Assembly (NCBI GenBank): GCA_003561535.1
Contig: PWWI01000232.1
Span: forward strand, 1 to 64,000
Origin: Nitriliruptoraceae bacterium
GTDB taxonomy: Bacteria; Actinomycetota; Nitriliruptoria; Nitriliruptorales; Nitriliruptoraceae
Direction of reading: 5' to 3'
DNA length: 64,000 nucleotides
Shown here in pieces: positions 12,437-54,985 of this stretch (its first letter is position 1; every line of letters starts with the position of its first letter). A program made the translations under genes and the position numbers. Under the pieces are notes generated by a model, which did not search any database, was not told where the DNA came from, and saw only the letters and a program-made list of their open reading frames with translations.

Positions 12437-13513
12437 TCACTTGTCGACACCCGTGATGACGATGCCCTGGATGAAGACGCGCTGGGCGAAGAAGAAGATC
12501 ACCAGCGGGATCGCGAGGGGGATGAACGACGCGGCCATGATCAGCTGCGGCTCCGAGTCGTACACCCCGCTGAAGAAGGTGAGTCCGATGGAGATGGGCT
12601 GGATGTCCCGATTGCTGACGAGGTAGATCAGCGGTCCGAAGAAGTCGTTCCAGGCGAAGAAGAAGTGGAACAGCGAGACCGCGGTCAGCGCCGGGACGGA
12701 CTGCGGCAGGATGACGTAGAAGAAGGTCCTGAGCGCCCCCGCACCGTCGCCCGCCGCCGCCTGCTCCATCTCGGTGGGGATGGTGAAGAAGTACTGGCGG
12801 AGCAAGAACACGTTGTAGGCGTTGGCGAAGAACTGCGGGACGATCAGCGGCAACCAGGTCCCGGTCCAACCGATCCAACTGAAGAAGGCGTAGCTCGGCA
12901 CCTGGGTCACCGCCGGCGGCAGGATGATCGTGGCCATCAGCACCATGAAGAGCACGCCACGTCCTCGGAAACGGAACCTGGAGAAGCCGTAGGCGACGAA
13001 GGCTGAGGAGATCACCGCACCGAAGAGAGTGACGGTGGCGTAGAAGGTGGTCCAGAACAGCAGCCGCGGGAAGTTGATCAACTCCCAGGCCTCGGGGTAG
13101 TTCCCCCACGCCAGCGACAGCGACCGAACGGGCTCCAGGGTGCGCCAGCGGCCCTCCCAGGTGATGAGGCCGGCCTCGGGATCGGACGGGTCGACGAACT
13201 CGCTCGTCTCCCTGCCCCGGGTGACGAGGGCGAGTTCACGGTCCCCGTCGTCGAAGGGCACCTCGAAGACCTCGTACTTCCGATCCTCGAACTCGAAGGT
13301 CGCGATCTCGGTCGGGAGGATCGGGGCATCGGCCACCTGACTGCGCGTCTTCAGCGAGGTGACGCCGGCGTAGGCCAGCGGCATGAGCCACACGGAGAGG
13401 ATGGCCACCGCCAGGGTGGTCACCCCCCAGGTCATGAGCAGGCGCTTGCGCTTGATGCGGGCGGTGACCTCGTCGTAGGTCGTGACCTGACGCCGCGGAA
13501 CGAGGAGGTTCAT
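12437..13513 (-). CDS. CUT1 carbohydrate ABC transporter permease (MalG type) with enlarged extracytoplasmic loop
   Basis: EAA-like EMEQAAAGDGAGALRTFFYVILPQSVPAL; hydrophobic segments; position after partner permease. Confidence 0.9.
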   Translation of the reverse strand: MNLLVPRRQVTTYDEVTARIKRKRLLMTWGVTTLAVAILSVWLMPLAYAGVTSLKTRSQVADAPILPTEIATFEFEDRKYEVFEVPFDDGDRELALVTRGRETSEFVDPSDPEAGLITWEGRWRTLEPVRSLSLAWGNYPEAWELINFPRLLFWTTFYATVTLFGAVISSAFVAYGFSRFRFRGRGVLFMVLMATIILPPAVTQVPSYAFFSWIGWTGTWLPLIVPQFFANAYNVFLLRQYFFTIPTEMEQAAAGDGAGALRTFFYVILPQSVPALTAVSLFHFFFAWNDFFGPLIYLVSNRDIQPISIGLTFFSGVYDSEPQLIMAASFIPLAIPLVIFFFAQRVFIQGIVITGVDK

Positions 13514-14508
13514 GTCTGCTCCGCCGAGTAGTAGACCCAGGAGCGGGCCGTGCCGAAGACGACGATGGTGATGGCGAGCGCGACGAAGAAGAGGATCCAG
13601 GCCAGCGTCGCCCCGTAGCCCATCTGCGCGAACTGGAAGGCCTGCTTGTAGAAGTAGATCATGTAGAAGTTCGTGGCTCCCTGGGGGTACCCACTGGTGC
13701 CGTTGAGCACGAAGGGTTGGAGGAAGTACTGCAACAGCCCCACGAGACCGAGCACCAGGTTGTAGAAGATGACCGGGGAGACCATCGGGACCGTGATGTG
13801 CCACATCCGTCGCCACCAGCCGGCACCGTCGATGGACGCCGACTCGTAGAGCGCGGTCGGCACACCCTGGAGTCCGGCGAGGTTGATGAGGATGGCGTTG
13901 CCCAGACCCCAGATCCCGATGAAGGTGTAGGTCAGCGGGATCAACGTCGGGTTGTCCAGCCAGCGGATGCCGTCGACGCCTGTCGCGTCGATACCGAACA
14001 GGAACGAGATCAGGCGGTTCACCCAACCGGTCTGGCTGTTGAGGATCTGCGAGAAGATCAGCGTCGACGCGATGAAGGGCACGACCGACGGCGCGTAGAA
14101 CAGCGTCCGGAACAGGTTCCGGGAGCGCAGGTAGTCAGAGTTGAGGAGGAGCGCGAAGCCGAAGGCGACGACCAACCCGATGGGCAGGTTGATCACCGCG
14201 AACCGCAGGGTCACGATCCACGCCCGCCACACGTTCGGGTCGTTGAACAGTGCCCGCTGCCAGTTCCCGAGGCCGATGAACTCGGCCTCATCGGGCGTGG
14301 CCAGCTGGAAGCTGAGGGTCGAGAAGAACGCCGACGCCACCATCGGCAGTAGGTAGAACAGCAGGAAACCGACCAGCCAGGGCGAGATGAACAGCAGACC
14401 GGCGCGCGCGCGTCGCCGCTCCAGCGGCCCGATCTCCTGTCGCTTCGGGCGTGTGCGGTCGAGCCGCAACCTGCCCCACCCCGCGGGCTTCACCATCGTC
14501 GTCGCCAT
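13510..14508 (-). CDS. CUT1 carbohydrate ABC transporter permease (MalF type)
   Basis: EAA-like ALYESASIDGAGWWRRMWHITVPMVSPV; six hydrophobic segments. Confidence 0.92.
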   Translation of the reverse strand: MATTMVKPAGWGRLRLDRTRPKRQEIGPLERRRARAGLLFISPWLVGFLLFYLLPMVASAFFSTLSFQLATPDEAEFIGLGNWQRALFNDPNVWRAWIVTLRFAVINLPIGLVVAFGFALLLNSDYLRSRNLFRTLFYAPSVVPFIASTLIFSQILNSQTGWVNRLISFLFGIDATGVDGIRWLDNPTLIPLTYTFIGIWGLGNAILINLAGLQGVPTALYESASIDGAGWWRRMWHITVPMVSPVIFYNLVLGLVGLLQYFLQPFVLNGTSGYPQGATNFYMIYFYKQAFQFAQMGYGATLAWILFFVALAITIVVFGTARSWVYYSAEQT

Positions 14509-37445: not shown

Positions 37446-39275
37446 TCAGTCGGTCTCGCAGGTGTCGACGGTCGGGTCGCTGGTGAGGCGGTCGGTGAGC
37501 CAGGCGACCACGTCGTCATCCGCGGCGTCGTCGACACCGAGGTGGCCGACGCCGGGGACCTCCCGGTACTCCAGCTGCTGGCCCAAGGCGCACAGCCGCT
37601 GCACGAAGCGACGCTGGATGTCCGCGCGGATCAGCACGTCGTCGGTGCCCTGCACGATCAGCAGGGGCGCGTCGATCGGGTCGTTCCCGGGGGTGTTCTC
37701 CGCGATCCGGCTCGCCCACGGCTCGGTCTCCCAGATGGGGGAAACCAGGAACCCGAGCTGCAGCAGCTCGGCATCGGTGAGCAACGAGACCGCCTCCGGA
37801 CCGGTCGCGACACAGGCGTCCGCGAGGCGCTCAACGATCGGCAGCACCACCGGATCGACGATGTCGGCGGCGTCGATGTCGTCGAACACCCGGTCCCAGG
37901 CCGCGACGGCGTAGGCGCCGAGCAGGTTGCCGAAGGTGGTGCCGTCGTTGGCCTCGATGAACGCTGCGAGTTCCGAGGCCGGGGCCAGCCCGGCCACGGC
38001 GACGAGTTCGAGCTCCGGGGCGTACACCCCCGCACGCTGGCCGGTGAACATCGCGGCATGGCCTCCCTGGGAGTGGCCGGCCACGGCGAACCGTGACGAG
38101 GCCTGCCCGTCGGCGAGGTCGATCGCTGCCCGGACCGCGTCGAGGGTGGAGACCGCCGCGACGTCGCCGACGAGGTAGGGGTGCACGCCCTCGGCACCCA
38201 GGCCGAGGTAGTCCGGGGCGGCGATGATCCACCCGGCATCGACGAAGGCCTCGAGCCCCCACATCTGCTCCACGTAGGCGCCGCCGAGCAGCGACGGTGC
38301 GCAGGATCGCGCGACCCCGATGGTGCCGTGGGTGAACGCGAGCACCGGCCGTCCCTCCTCAGGGACGTCGGCATCGTCCGGCACGATGATGATGCCGCTC
38401 ACCGCCGCAGGTGCACCCGCCAGGTCACGGCTCGTGTAGAGCACCCGGTACGCCGTCGCTCCCTCCACGAACGGGTCGATGACCTCCGAGCGCAGCACCG
38501 CGCCGGGCGTGGGGTCGAAAGCCGCCGGTGCGGCGTAGAAGGGGCCCGGCTCCGGTGTCGAGTCCCGTCCGATGAACGCCGCGGCACCGATCGCCAGGAT
38601 CGCGACCAGCAGCATCCCGAGGCTGCCGGCGAGGCGGGCCCCGGTCGACCACCGACCCGTCGCGACCTCCATCGGATGCCCGTGCCGGAGACGGTCGACA
38701 CCGAGGACGACGATCCGCGCGCCGAACAGCAGCCCCCACACGCTCAGCGCCACACCGAGGGTGAACGCCGAGATCGACGGCCACAGCAGGACGGCCCCTC
38801 CGAGCAGCAGGTGCGTGACCGCGCCAGCCGCGGCCGCGAACCGTAGGTTGGACGCAACGGGCAACCGCGCGAACATCACCAGCTCGACCACCCCACCGGC
38901 CAGCAGGGCGCCGCCGAACAGCCACGCCAGCACCGCGCTCGTCGGATCCGGCCACACAGCCATCGCCGTGGCGGCCACCAACCACACCACACCGGCGACC
39001 ATGCGGGGAGACCGGACCTGCCGCGCGGCCAGCAGCTGGCTCACCGCCGCGAGACCCAACGCCGCGCTCAGCAGCGGGCGGAGCCCCGCCGGCTCCCCCA
39101 CGTGGCGCACCAGCAGGAGACTCCCGAGAGCGACCAGCAGGGCGCCGACGACCACCAGCGCCCCCGCCAGTAGGGACCGCCCACGATGTCCGGTCAAGAG
39201 CCCCCTCCGCGTGAGCACCTGGAGCCGTCGACGGTCCGGTCCGTCCTGACGACCAGTGAGGAAGGAACGGACCAC
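37446..39275 (-). CDS. Membrane fusion protein: N-terminal HdeD-like multi-TM domain plus C-terminal secretory lipase-type alpha/beta hydrolase
   Basis: N-terminal hydrophobic repeats; C-terminal FTHGTIGVARSCAPS, AAPDYLGLGAEG, VAGHSQGGHAAMF, VQGTDDVLI. Confidence 0.8.
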   Translation of the reverse strand: MVRSFLTGRQDGPDRRRLQVLTRRGLLTGHRGRSLLAGALVVVGALLVALGSLLLVRHVGEPAGLRPLLSAALGLAAVSQLLAARQVRSPRMVAGVVWLVAATAMAVWPDPTSAVLAWLFGGALLAGGVVELVMFARLPVASNLRFAAAAGAVTHLLLGGAVLLWPSISAFTLGVALSVWGLLFGARIVVLGVDRLRHGHPMEVATGRWSTGARLAGSLGMLLVAILAIGAAAFIGRDSTPEPGPFYAAPAAFDPTPGAVLRSEVIDPFVEGATAYRVLYTSRDLAGAPAAVSGIIIVPDDADVPEEGRPVLAFTHGTIGVARSCAPSLLGGAYVEQMWGLEAFVDAGWIIAAPDYLGLGAEGVHPYLVGDVAAVSTLDAVRAAIDLADGQASSRFAVAGHSQGGHAAMFTGQRAGVYAPELELVAVAGLAPASELAAFIEANDGTTFGNLLGAYAVAAWDRVFDDIDAADIVDPVVLPIVERLADACVATGPEAVSLLTDAELLQLGFLVSPIWETEPWASRIAENTPGNDPIDAPLLIVQGTDDVLIRADIQRRFVQRLCALGQQLEYREVPGVGHLGVDDAADDDVVAWLTDRLTSDPTVDTCETD

Positions 39276-39343: not shown

Positions 39344-39421
39344 TAGTGCTGGTACTCGGGGGTGACGAGGCTCTGGTCCCCTCGTGACGGCAGGGTGGCC
39401 ACGAGCGGTGGAGGTTGGAGC

Positions 39422-41350
39422 ATGAGCGGACGCTGGTGGGTCGCTGCCGGGGGGTTGGCGGCTGCCGGCCTCCTGGTGCTGACCGTGGTGGTGGCAGGGC
39501 CACTGCGCGCAGGCGGGGATCAGCCGCCGCCGGAGCCGCCTCCGAGCGACCAAGAGCCCCCGCAACCGGAGACGCTGGAGAGCTTCCGCCTGGGCGCACC
39601 GGCGGACTGCGGCACCAACCCGTTCTGCCTCGACGGGTTGGGCCGCACCTACGGCATCGACGTGACGGAACTGCTCGTGCCAATGGAGCCGGGCGAGCCG
39701 ATCGTGACCGCCCTCCGCGAGGGCACGGTCGAGGTCGGGGTGCTGTTCACGACCGATCCGTTGCTGGCCGAGGAGGATCTCGTCGTCCTCGACGACGACC
39801 TCGGGATGCTGGCGGCGGAGAACGTGGTGCCCTACTCCCGGGCCGAGCTGATCGAGCAACGCGGGGACGGGCTGCGGGACGCGCTTGATCGTGTCAGCGA
39901 GGTGCTGACGACCGAGGCCGTGTCCCGCATGGTTGCCGAGCTACGCGCGGGCACACCCGCCGACCTGGCCGCGTCGCAGCTGATCGAGACCCTCGACCTC
40001 GACACGGTCGAGGTCGAGGTCGAGAGAGGCGACCCGATCCGCATCGGCGCGGAGCGCTTCGACGAGGACGTCGTGATCGCGCACGCGTACGTGGCCGGCC
40101 TGCTCACCCAGGGGGTCGACGCGGCGGTCGTCGAGCTCGACGGTTTCCGGGCCCTGGAGGTCGCGTCGCTGCTGGACCGCGAGATCGACGTGGCGATCGA
40201 CTACGCCGGCTCGCTGCTGGAGTTCCTCGACGGCTTCGCCTCGCTCGCCAGCCCCGACCCGAAGGAGACCGTCGCGGCGCTCGGTGAGCTCCTCGCGGTC
40301 GCCGACTACGAGCTGTTCGCCCCGTCGCCAGCCACCTCGGCGAACACGTTCGTGGTCACGGCCGCCACCGCCGAACGCTACGGCCTGTCGGCGCTGTCCG
40401 ACCTCGTCGATGCGGCACCGGCCGCCGAGGCCACCCCGCCACCCGGTGTCCGCCCCGAGGTGACCGAGCCGCTGGTGCTGCTCGGTGACGCCGCGCTGCG
40501 GGTCGGCGACACCGGGCCGGCCGTCCTGCAGTTGCAGGAGCTGCTCCAGGCGGCCGGTTACCCACCGGGCCCGCTCAACGGCATCTTCGAGGAACCGACC
40601 CGCCGTGCCGTCGCCGCCTTCCAGACCGACGCGGGCCTCCCGCCGACCGGGGTCGCCGGCCCACAGACGCTCGCCGCCCTCGAGGCCGCCGTGGCCGCCG
40701 CAGAGGAGACCGAGAGCGAGACCGACGGATCCGGCGGCACACCACCACCCGACCCGGAGCCAGCGCCGGACCGTCCGGCGCCGGACGGCGCGGTCGTGCA
40801 CCTCACCTTCGACGACGGGCCCAACGCGACCTACACCCCTCAGGTCCTCGACCTGCTGGCTCGCTACGACGCGCAAGCCGTGTTCTTCGCGATCGGGCAG
40901 CAGGTGAGCGGTGGCAGCGCGCTGGTGCAGCGGGCGACCGCCGACGGGCACCGACTCGGCAACCACTCCTGGAGCCACCCGTCCCTGGCCGAGCTGTCAC
41001 GGCCCGCGTTCGACCAGGAGATCGGAAGGACCCAGGACGCCGTCCAGGCAGCCACCGGCAGGCGGCCCACCTGCCTGCGCCCCCCGTACGGGGCGATGGG
41101 GAGCCAGACCCGCAGCTGGGCTGCCGAGGCCGGACTGGAGGTCGTGCTCTGGGACATCGATCCGCAGGACTGGGCCCGACCGGGGGTGGACTCGATCGTG
41201 CGCAGCGTGATCGACCACGTCCGCCCGGGCGACGTGGTGCTGTTCCACGACGGCGGCGGCAACCGTGAGCAGACCGTGGCCGCGCTCGAGCGGATCCTCG
41301 ACCAGCTCTCGGACCGCGGGTTCTCCTTCACGATCGCTCCCGGCTGCTGA
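39422..41350 (+). CDS. Secreted/membrane-anchored fusion: circularly permuted OpuAC-type solute-binding domain + PG_binding_1 domain + NodB polysaccharide deacetylase
   Basis: Canonical OpuAC C-half at aa ~55-195, N-half at aa ~204-333, PGBD aa ~357-420 (LRVGDTGPAVLQLQELLQAAGY), NodB aa ~457-640 (LTFDDGPN, HSWSHP, RPPYGAMG, DIDPQDW, VLFHDGGG). Confidence 0.85.
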   Translation: MSGRWWVAAGGLAAAGLLVLTVVVAGPLRAGGDQPPPEPPPSDQEPPQPETLESFRLGAPADCGTNPFCLDGLGRTYGIDVTELLVPMEPGEPIVTALREGTVEVGVLFTTDPLLAEEDLVVLDDDLGMLAAENVVPYSRAELIEQRGDGLRDALDRVSEVLTTEAVSRMVAELRAGTPADLAASQLIETLDLDTVEVEVERGDPIRIGAERFDEDVVIAHAYVAGLLTQGVDAAVVELDGFRALEVASLLDREIDVAIDYAGSLLEFLDGFASLASPDPKETVAALGELLAVADYELFAPSPATSANTFVVTAATAERYGLSALSDLVDAAPAAEATPPPGVRPEVTEPLVLLGDAALRVGDTGPAVLQLQELLQAAGYPPGPLNGIFEEPTRRAVAAFQTDAGLPPTGVAGPQTLAALEAAVAAAEETESETDGSGGTPPPDPEPAPDRPAPDGAVVHLTFDDGPNATYTPQVLDLLARYDAQAVFFAIGQQVSGGSALVQRATADGHRLGNHSWSHPSLAELSRPAFDQEIGRTQDAVQAATGRRPTCLRPPYGAMGSQTRSWAAEAGLEVVLWDIDPQDWARPGVDSIVRSVIDHVRPGDVVLFHDGGGNREQTVAALERILDQLSDRGFSFTIAPGC

Positions 41351-53186: not shown

Positions 53187-54068
53187 TCACGTCGTGTTGC
53201 GCTGCCGGGACAACAGCAGCGACGCGAGTACCAGCAACATCGATCCGACCAGCATCAGCACCGACACCGCGTTGATCAGCGGCGTCACTCCTCGGCGCAC
53301 CAGCCCGAAGACGTAGACCGGCAGGGTCGTGGACCCTGGTCCCGCGACGAAACTGGTGATGACCACCTCGTCCAGCGACAGCGTGAGCGCGAGCAGTGCC
53401 CCGCCCGCCACGCCAGGCGCGATCAGCGGGAGCGTCACCCGGCGGAACGCCTGCCACCGGCTGGCGTACAGGTCGGCCGCCGCCTCCTCCAGCGACGGGT
53501 CGAGCCCGACGATCCGGGCGCGGACCACCACCGCCACGAACGAGATGTTGAAGGCGATGTGGGACAGGGAGATGGTCCCGATCCCGAACGTCGCCGAGAC
53601 CCCGAGCATGGCTCCGAGCAGGTCGAAGGCCTGCACGAAGAACAACAGCATCATCACGGCCATCGTGACGTCGGGGATGATGACGGGCAGGTACAGCAGC
53701 CCGTCGTAGGTCCGTTGCCCGCGGTAGCGGAACCGTTCCAGGGACAGCCCCGCGGCGGTGCCGAGGATCGTGGACACGACGGTGGAGATGAACGCGACCA
53801 CGATCGAGTTGCGCAGGGCGCCGAGCACCGCGCTGTCGGTGATCATGGCGCGGTACCAGCGCAGGCTCGGTTCGGTCCACACCCCGACCACCCGGTTGTC
53901 GTTGAAGGACAGCACGAACAGCAGCAGGATCGGCAGGTACAGGAAGGCGAAGACCAGCCACGCGTTGCCGGCCAGCAGGCGCTCGACGCCCCGCTTGGGC
54001 CGGATCACCGAATCGTCGGCGACGAGCGGACGCGAGGCACCGGAGGTGTCGGTCAGGCTCATCGTCAC
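53187..54068 (-). CDS. potC: Polyamine ABC transporter permease (PotC type)
   Basis: EAA-like EEAAADLYASRWQAFRRVTLPLIAPGV; six TM segments. Confidence 0.92.
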   Translation of the reverse strand: MTMSLTDTSGASRPLVADDSVIRPKRGVERLLAGNAWLVFAFLYLPILLLFVLSFNDNRVVGVWTEPSLRWYRAMITDSAVLGALRNSIVVAFISTVVSTILGTAAGLSLERFRYRGQRTYDGLLYLPVIIPDVTMAVMMLLFFVQAFDLLGAMLGVSATFGIGTISLSHIAFNISFVAVVVRARIVGLDPSLEEAAADLYASRWQAFRRVTLPLIAPGVAGGALLALTLSLDEVVITSFVAGPGSTTLPVYVFGLVRRGVTPLINAVSVLMLVGSMLLVLASLLLSRQRNTT

Positions 54069-54985
54069 GCCTCCCGGTCGCGGGTTCGGAAGTAGACGAC
54101 CGCCGCGACCAGCATCACGGCCAGGATCGCCACCGAGAGTGCGGACCCGAACGGCCAGTCGCGCGCAGACAGGAACTGGCGCACGACGTAACTGCCGATC
54201 ATCGTCGTGCGGCCGCCGCCGAGGATCTCCGGGGTGACGTAGGCGCCGAACGAGGGGATGAACACCAGGATCGACCCGGCGACCACACCGGGTCGCGACA
54301 GCGGCCAGGTGACCCGCCAGAACGCCTGCCAGCCGGTGGCGTGGAGGTCACGGGCCGCCTCGACCAGCGAGAAGTCGAGCCGTTCCAGGGTCGCGTACAG
54401 CGGCAGGATCATGAAGGGCAGGTAGCCGTAGACGAGGCCGACCACCACCGCGAAGGGGGTGAACAGCAACTGCCCCTCGGTGCCGAGGATCGGCTCCAGG
54501 AACCGCACGAAGGGGCCGTCGCGACCGAGGATGACCCGCCAGGCGTAGGTCCGGATCAGGAAGTTCGACCAGAAGGGGATCATCACGAGGACGAGCAACA
54601 CGCCGCGCACCCGGGGGGAGCGGGTCGCGAGGTAGTAGGCGAACGGGTAGCCGACGACCAGTGAGATGACGGTGGTGAGCAGGGCGAGCCAGAGCGAACG
54701 CAGCCCGATCTCGAGCACCAACGGGTCGAACAACCGGGCGTAGCTGCTGAGGTTCCAGTCGGCCAGGATCGTGCGACCCGTGCGGCTGCGTGTCGCGAAC
54801 GAGTAGACGACCACGATGACCAGCGGTAGCGCGAACAGCACGACGAGGTAGAGCAGGCTGGGCAACCCGATCAGGAAGCCACGGCGGGACTCGGCCTGTT
54901 CGGCGGCGCGCTCGAGGCCCGGCTCGTCCGGCGCGGACGCCGGGGTGGGTGTCTGGGTGCGGGGCGGGTCGACGGTGGCGGCCAC
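54065..54985 (-). CDS. potB: Polyamine ABC transporter permease (PotB type)
   Basis: EAARDLHATGWQAFWRVTWPLSRPGV; overlap with potC. Confidence 0.92.
   Translation of the reverse strand: MAATVDPPRTQTPTPASAPDEPGLERAAEQAESRRGFLIGLPSLLYLVVLFALPLVIVVVYSFATRSRTGRTILADWNLSSYARLFDPLVLEIGLRSLWLALLTTVISLVVGYPFAYYLATRSPRVRGVLLVLVMIPFWSNFLIRTYAWRVILGRDGPFVRFLEPILGTEGQLLFTPFAVVVGLVYGYLPFMILPLYATLERLDFSLVEAARDLHATGWQAFWRVTWPLSRPGVVAGSILVFIPSFGAYVTPEILGGGRTTMIGSYVVRQFLSARDWPFGSALSVAILAVMLVAAVVYFRTRDREA

Follow-up and report, generated by a model that had tools for sequence, protein, structure and literature searches.

On the forward strand of the 64-kb window (the whole stretch of DNA that was analysed), which comes from an actinobacterium of soda-lake type, lies a gene for a protein in which a hydrophobic N-terminal segment, two halves of an OpuAC-type solute-binding domain in reversed order, a peptidoglycan-binding domain (PGBD) and a NodB deacetylase follow one another (Table 1). 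An earlier sequence-only reading had given this open reading frame and the order of its OpuAC halves; both proved correct in the Pfam analysis, and Pfam matches together with motif reading also recovered the PGBD and the NodB domain with all its catalytic motifs behind the OpuAC halves. The hydrophobic segment lacks a lipobox Cys and is followed by a Pro-rich linker up to aa ~51. The protein is strongly acidic (D+E = 101, K+R = 38, with a single Lys), a composition that would fit an exported protein of a halophile. It is an exported protein, probably anchored in the membrane. The N-terminal OpuAC half stops at LSALSDL, which is the end point of Bacillus subtilis OpuAC.

Table 1. Coordinates of the fusion gene, its related loci and the cut sites of permuted OpuAC domains
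Feature	Position	Strand	Details
Whole gene: anchor, permuted OpuAC domain, PG_binding_1, NodB deacetylase	39422..41350	+	642 aa; ATG at 39422, stop codon ending at 41350
Shine-Dalgarno-like GGAGG	39410..39414	+	7 nt 5' of the ATG; read directly
Hydrophobic N-terminus, aa ~5-30 (anchor or signal peptide)	39434..39511	+	Hydropathy maximum 2.37, aa 7-25
OpuAC C-terminal half, placed first, aa 52-196	39575..40009	+	PF04069 profile 138-252 at aa 72-184
New short joint, native C- and N-termini fused, aa 197-202	40010..40027	+	Alignment with native homologues
OpuAC N-terminal half, placed second, aa ~203-333	40028..40420	+	PF04069 profile 1-113
PG_binding_1, aa 364-420	40511..40681	+	Pfam 4.1e-19
NodB / CE4 polysaccharide deacetylase, aa 455-637	40784..41332	+	Polysacc_deac_1 at aa 455-575, Pfam 8.1e-36
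Ortholog of the fusion gene	L037:3758-5758 / L072:4130-6130	- / +	In frame, same architecture, 76-77% identity
NodB paralogue-type proteins	L010:1501-3084 / L011:481-2115 / L012:275-1774	- / + / -	In congeners and in one further genus of this family
Cut A	~142/143 (native coordinates)		Fusion protein, ortholog, L075, L141-L149, L151, L153
Cut B	~172/173 (native coordinates)		~30 residues past A; L150 (1180-2322), L152, L183, L041
Cut C	~206/207 (native coordinates)		~64 residues past A; L131-L137, L139, L159 (Blastococcus, Geodermatophilus, others)

The sequence-only reading had proposed that the two halves form a single, circularly permuted domain and that the OpuAC match should improve when they are swapped. 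In the order found in the gene PF04069 needs two stretches to cover the region (83.9-86.3 bits; cut-off 21.2), whereas after the swap one stretch covers profile positions 2-252 at 96.0 bits. The best PDB sequence match rose from 25 to 32 bits after the swap, with an alignment that spans the artificial junction, and the swapped sequence aligns across this junction to the solved structures of EgtUC, OpuCC and AfProX. Some 50 homologues of native order align with both halves the other way round, at roughly 25-46% identity and far above chance, and the swapped domain aligns with native-order homologues from end to end.

An AlphaFold2 model of aa 46-345, built on an alignment in which two further proteins of the same order were combined with half-length rows from native-order homologues, shows one two-lobed, well-packed domain (mean pLDDT 90.6, pTM 0.87). 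In a Foldseek search, which keeps chain order, the first five places fell to four entries of B. subtilis OpuAC (targets of 258-268 residues; TM 0.58-0.66, E 4e-10 to 2e-8). The other 45 matches listed, native-order ProX/YehZ-type proteins included, reached a query-normalised TM of 0.34-0.40, so that B. subtilis OpuAC alone matched the model over its full length among the Foldseek matches listed. By the model and this ranking it is a single binding domain whose chain is connected as in B. subtilis OpuAC. Its fold is that of type II binding proteins, as seen in the model and in the match to 2b4l, and its topology is that of a permutant: the C-half precedes the N-half, and the cut lies between the SxxDL motif and the next strand of lobe 2. 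A full-length AlphaFold2 run made without an alignment gave a pLDDT of 39.5 and was uninformative. Two unrelated fragments can be rejected given the gain after the swap, the confident single-fold model and the Foldseek match to permuted OpuAC. Each of the refuting conditions named in the sequence-only reading was checked directly or in approximate form, and none of them spoke against the permutation. We are therefore nearly certain of the domain anatomy and of the permutation.

Circular permutation among glycine-betaine-binding proteins, 2b4l included, was published in 2008 with the CPSARST method (PMC2395249). Lactococcus lactis OpuAC maps onto B. subtilis OpuAC with its residues 100-252 at 7-158 and its residues 1-100 at 167-267; in Pfam coordinates B. 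subtilis OpuAC runs 118-256 and then 3-109, and the fusion protein 138-252 and then 1-113. These mappings indicate that the name-giving OpuAC is itself permuted and that the Pfam profile has the opposite order. The view of the sequence-only reading that the opposite order is the canonical one holds for the native-order relatives and the Pfam profile, but B. subtilis OpuAC (2b4l) has the order of the fusion protein. Nor is the permutation unique to the fusion protein, since both B. subtilis OpuAC and stand-alone same-cut proteins of Actinomycetota share it. By alignment, the fusion domain is a type II, ProX/EgtU-like, OpuAC-type solute-binding domain. It is closer in sequence to the ProX/EgtU/OpuCC group and to native-order actinobacterial proteins (~40%) than to 2b4l, and because of this affinity its cut was probably reached independently of B. 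subtilis OpuAC. A literature search for OpuAC together with 'domain dislocation' found nothing, and viral contigs searched for relatives held none.

A same-order profile was searched in 398 genomes, and a native-order profile was then used to place the cuts. Stand-alone proteins with the cut of the fusion domain are fairly common in Actinomycetota, where they occur in several families, and at least three cut sites were found in this phylum, at successive loops of the second lobe. At the loci examined, stand-alone permutants of all three cuts are the last gene of an ATPase-permease-permease-SBP operon, which suggests that they function in transport. In the tree of re-ordered domains cut C forms one clade and cut B requires two changes. 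The hypothesis that all cut-A forms go back to one origin was rejected (AU p = 0.0002, delta lnL 149), while a common origin is compatible with the data both for the fusion domain with L075 (AU p = 0.15) and for the ten core rows of cut A (AU p = 0.2); the resulting count of about three origins of cut A (P0001/L075, L148 and the core clade) is therefore a lower bound, and the tree cannot tell gain from loss or reversion. It is well supported that the OpuAC fold is prone to permutation, with three second-lobe loops cut in Actinomycetota, cut A common to Firmicute OpuAC, and the resulting forms serving as operon-borne transport proteins. At L127:4062-6149 two native-order OpuAC genes stand in tandem, 24 nt apart, an arrangement from which permutation by duplication could arise.

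The pocket of EgtU has a pentagon of F293, N339, Y341, Y419 and Y443 (PMC9732360). In our alignment these correspond to Y261, N308 and F310 in the N-half and to F109 and E133 in the C-half of the fusion domain. The five predicted pocket residues are identical in the ortholog and conform to the subfamily consensus, which in the same order is Y (42/42), N (38/42), F (25/42), F (35/42) and E or D (38/42). AfProX binds quaternary ammonium in an aromatic cage of Y63, Y111, Y190 and Y214 (PMC10087775). The fusion domain has Y, F, F and E at these places, the final aromatic being replaced by Glu as in the native relatives, so that membership of the OpuAC fold stands and specificity for glycine betaine does not follow from it. 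Glycine betaine was not adopted as the ligand, because the whole subfamily has Glu in place of one of the cage aromatics and because an actinobacterial ProX without the cage binds polyphenols and not betaine (PMC5894108). A cation is a plausible ligand, judging from the predicted pocket. In another genus of the family, L040:8640-9665 (-) encodes an anchored, stand-alone, same-cut OpuAC protein without enzyme or transporter genes. It has lost the pocket residues and sits on a very long branch; such modules can thus persist without ligand binding.

The NodB domain matches the CE4 profile and carries the five motifs (TFDDG 462, HSWSH 515, RPPYG 553, WDIDPQDW 577 and LFHDGG 607) with the Asp-His-His metal triad; its PDB relative is PgdA (2c1g, 4.9e-40). 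Peptidoglycan is what CE4 domains of the PgdA/PdaC type deacetylate and what PG_binding_1 binds. Judging from its PGBD and its similarity to PgdA/PdaC, the fusion protein is likely an envelope peptidoglycan deacetylase. The NodB domains of the three paralogue-type proteins are ~50-56% identical to that of the fusion protein. A domain scan of L010 gave DUF348-DUF348-G5-NodB, and by eye L011 and L012 seem to share this layout. As DUF348-G5 takes the place of the binding domain in these related proteins, the module at the N-terminus of these enzymes is exchangeable.

Of the genomes searched, the source genome and one congener (G003 = PWEU01000324.1, Nitriliruptoraceae MAG T1Sed10_7) have the complete architecture. 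The remaining congeners examined, which are 73-83% complete, gave no match over the length of the fusion gene, and a literature search for fusions of binding proteins with deacetylases found nothing relevant; the fusion of a permuted OpuAC domain with PGBD-NodB appears to be new and rare. The search for the same architecture elsewhere, which the sequence-only reading had suggested, thus yielded a second species with an identical domain order. The code T1Sed stands for samples taken at Tanatar-1, a soda lake saturated with salt (PMC6146748), and the match of this code places the MAG with the ortholog there. In a codon comparison with this single ortholog, dN/dS was 0.27 for the C-half and 0.29 for the N-half of the binding domain, 0.25 for the PGBD (90% identical) and 0.18 for NodB, whereas the linker that joins the binding domain to the PGBD gave 0.64; the regions are short and the values rough. 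The difference from the linker indicates purifying selection on every domain, so that the binding domain too is maintained. The ortholog has HSWSP for HSWSH, with Pro at the second metal-binding His of HxxxH; the change may leave the enzyme impaired or inactive, or may reflect an assembly error. In a different genus, L038:393-661 is a decayed relic of the fusion gene, in two pieces of 84-87% DNA identity with an internal deletion.

Neither the 64-kb window nor the contig of the ortholog holds an OpuA-type ATPase or permease, in agreement with the sequence-only reading of the window. The window does contain two ABC permease pairs, at 12467-14178 and 53214-54652 (-), but they look UgpAE-like and PotBC-like, not of the osmoprotectant type, and are unrelated to the fusion gene. 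In the source genome, a draft of 322 contigs and 81% completeness, contigs C42 and C219 encode further OpuAC-type systems together with permeases. The divergent neighbour at 37446-39275 (-) encodes a DUF308-like membrane part and a secretory-lipase-like hydrolase (PF03583); a homologue lies near the ortholog at L037:6734-8479 in the other relative orientation.

Same-cut stand-alone relatives close ATPase-permease-permease-SBP operons, and the fused gene is without such neighbours, which suggests that the fusion domain derives from a transport protein. Our favoured reading, held at a little under even confidence, is that a peptidoglycan deacetylase exapted an OpuAC-type binding protein as a module for input or tethering. 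The anchor would keep the protein at the membrane, the PGBD would retain the enzyme on peptidoglycan, and NodB would strip N-acetyl groups off the peptidoglycan sugars. The binding domain, with its pocket residues kept and its transporter partners lost, would sense a small solute, and closure of its lobes would shift the position, reach or activity of the deacetylase. Such ligand-responsive control is possible, and we hold it somewhat more tentatively. The cut lies in the second lobe (D2 of EgtU is 341-432, and the cut falls near 360-370 by alignment). Anchor and enzyme would then leave this lobe side by side, so that the binding module would hang as a side domain; a side-hung switchable tether, sensor or dock fits this layout better than a rigid lever. 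That the fold is prone to permutation and that one permutant became the ligand-input module of a deacetylase, taken jointly, is a proposal we make with still more reserve.

The binding domain might instead be a folded spacer, or a module in contact with the wall or with another protein, that sets the reach of NodB and senses no ligand. The exchangeable N-terminal module leaves room for such a role: DUF348-G5 stands at the same place in close NodB relatives of the genus, linkers flank the binding domain on both sides, and the anchored permuted relative L040 lost its pocket. We consider it rather unlikely, as both fused proteins retain all five residues of the pocket in line with the subfamily consensus, and as the dN/dS of the binding domain is about equal to that of the PGBD. 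It is quite improbable that the fused domain serves an ABC importer in trans, with PGBD-NodB doing no more than fix the binding protein to the wall. The same-cut relatives are true transport proteins and the source genome has the permeases on C42 and C219, but its other OpuAC proteins appear to own these permeases, no permease or ATPase of this ProX/EgtU-like subfamily adjoins the gene, and a dock would not need an intact catalytic domain.

Decay, in which a rearrangement joined two broken and non-cooperating OpuAC fragments, does occur in this gene, as the relic with the internal deletion (L038) proves. For the fusion protein itself it is very improbable in view of the confident two-lobed model, the full-length match to a permuted crystal structure, purifying selection on both halves and the same-cut stand-alone proteins in operons. 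An assembly or binning artefact that fused two genes might be suspected in a draft genome of this kind, but is scarcely credible and was rejected, because an independent MAG of another species repeats the architecture in frame at 76-77% identity.

Natural circular permutation is usually seen as a rare curiosity, and the OpuAC family has seemingly been permuted several times at a few preferred loops. Its permutants keep their place in transporter operons and so form a testable natural series of permutation tolerance, while sequence tools miss or split them. This kind of permutation was already known; it recurs more often than had been reported. Its repeated and varied occurrence in Actinomycetota is new, as is the attachment to a deacetylase. 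Should the fused domain sense a solute, (hyper)saline solute conditions would be linked to peptidoglycan deacetylation on one polypeptide, and in the literature we found no such solute-control route described for CE4 enzymes.

Several known systems resemble the fusion protein in part. B. subtilis OpuAC (2b4l, 2b4m, 3chg, 5nxx) has the order and cut of the fusion domain and is its best structural match, but is only 12-13% identical, belongs to a different subfamily and is a stand-alone transport protein. The same-cut stand-alone proteins of Actinomycetota (L075, L141-L149) are up to ~39% identical domain-wide; unlike the fusion protein, they are mostly lipoprotein-like, lie within operons and carry no enzyme. 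Native-order OpuAC-type proteins of Actinomycetota (ProX/EgtU-like, cluster F-III; L154, L073, L035) share ~40% identity per half and the pocket signature, whereas their halves run in the other order and they stand alone in transporter operons. Deacetylases of the PgdA/PdaC type (CE4; 2c1g, 6h8l) likewise have NodB with all motifs, but their N-terminal regions are different and include no binding-protein domain. The N-terminal domain of MltF is binding-protein-like. Muropeptide occupancy of this regulatory domain switches the peptidoglycan enzyme of MltF on (PMC10746161). As in the fusion protein, an N-terminal regulatory domain and a peptidoglycan enzyme share one chain, with gating shown in MltF and inferred here, whereas the enzyme of MltF is unrelated and its domain is non-permuted and comes from another binding-protein family. 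MltF may thus serve, as a loosely similar case, as a precedent of principle for the gating of a peptidoglycan enzyme by a binding domain.
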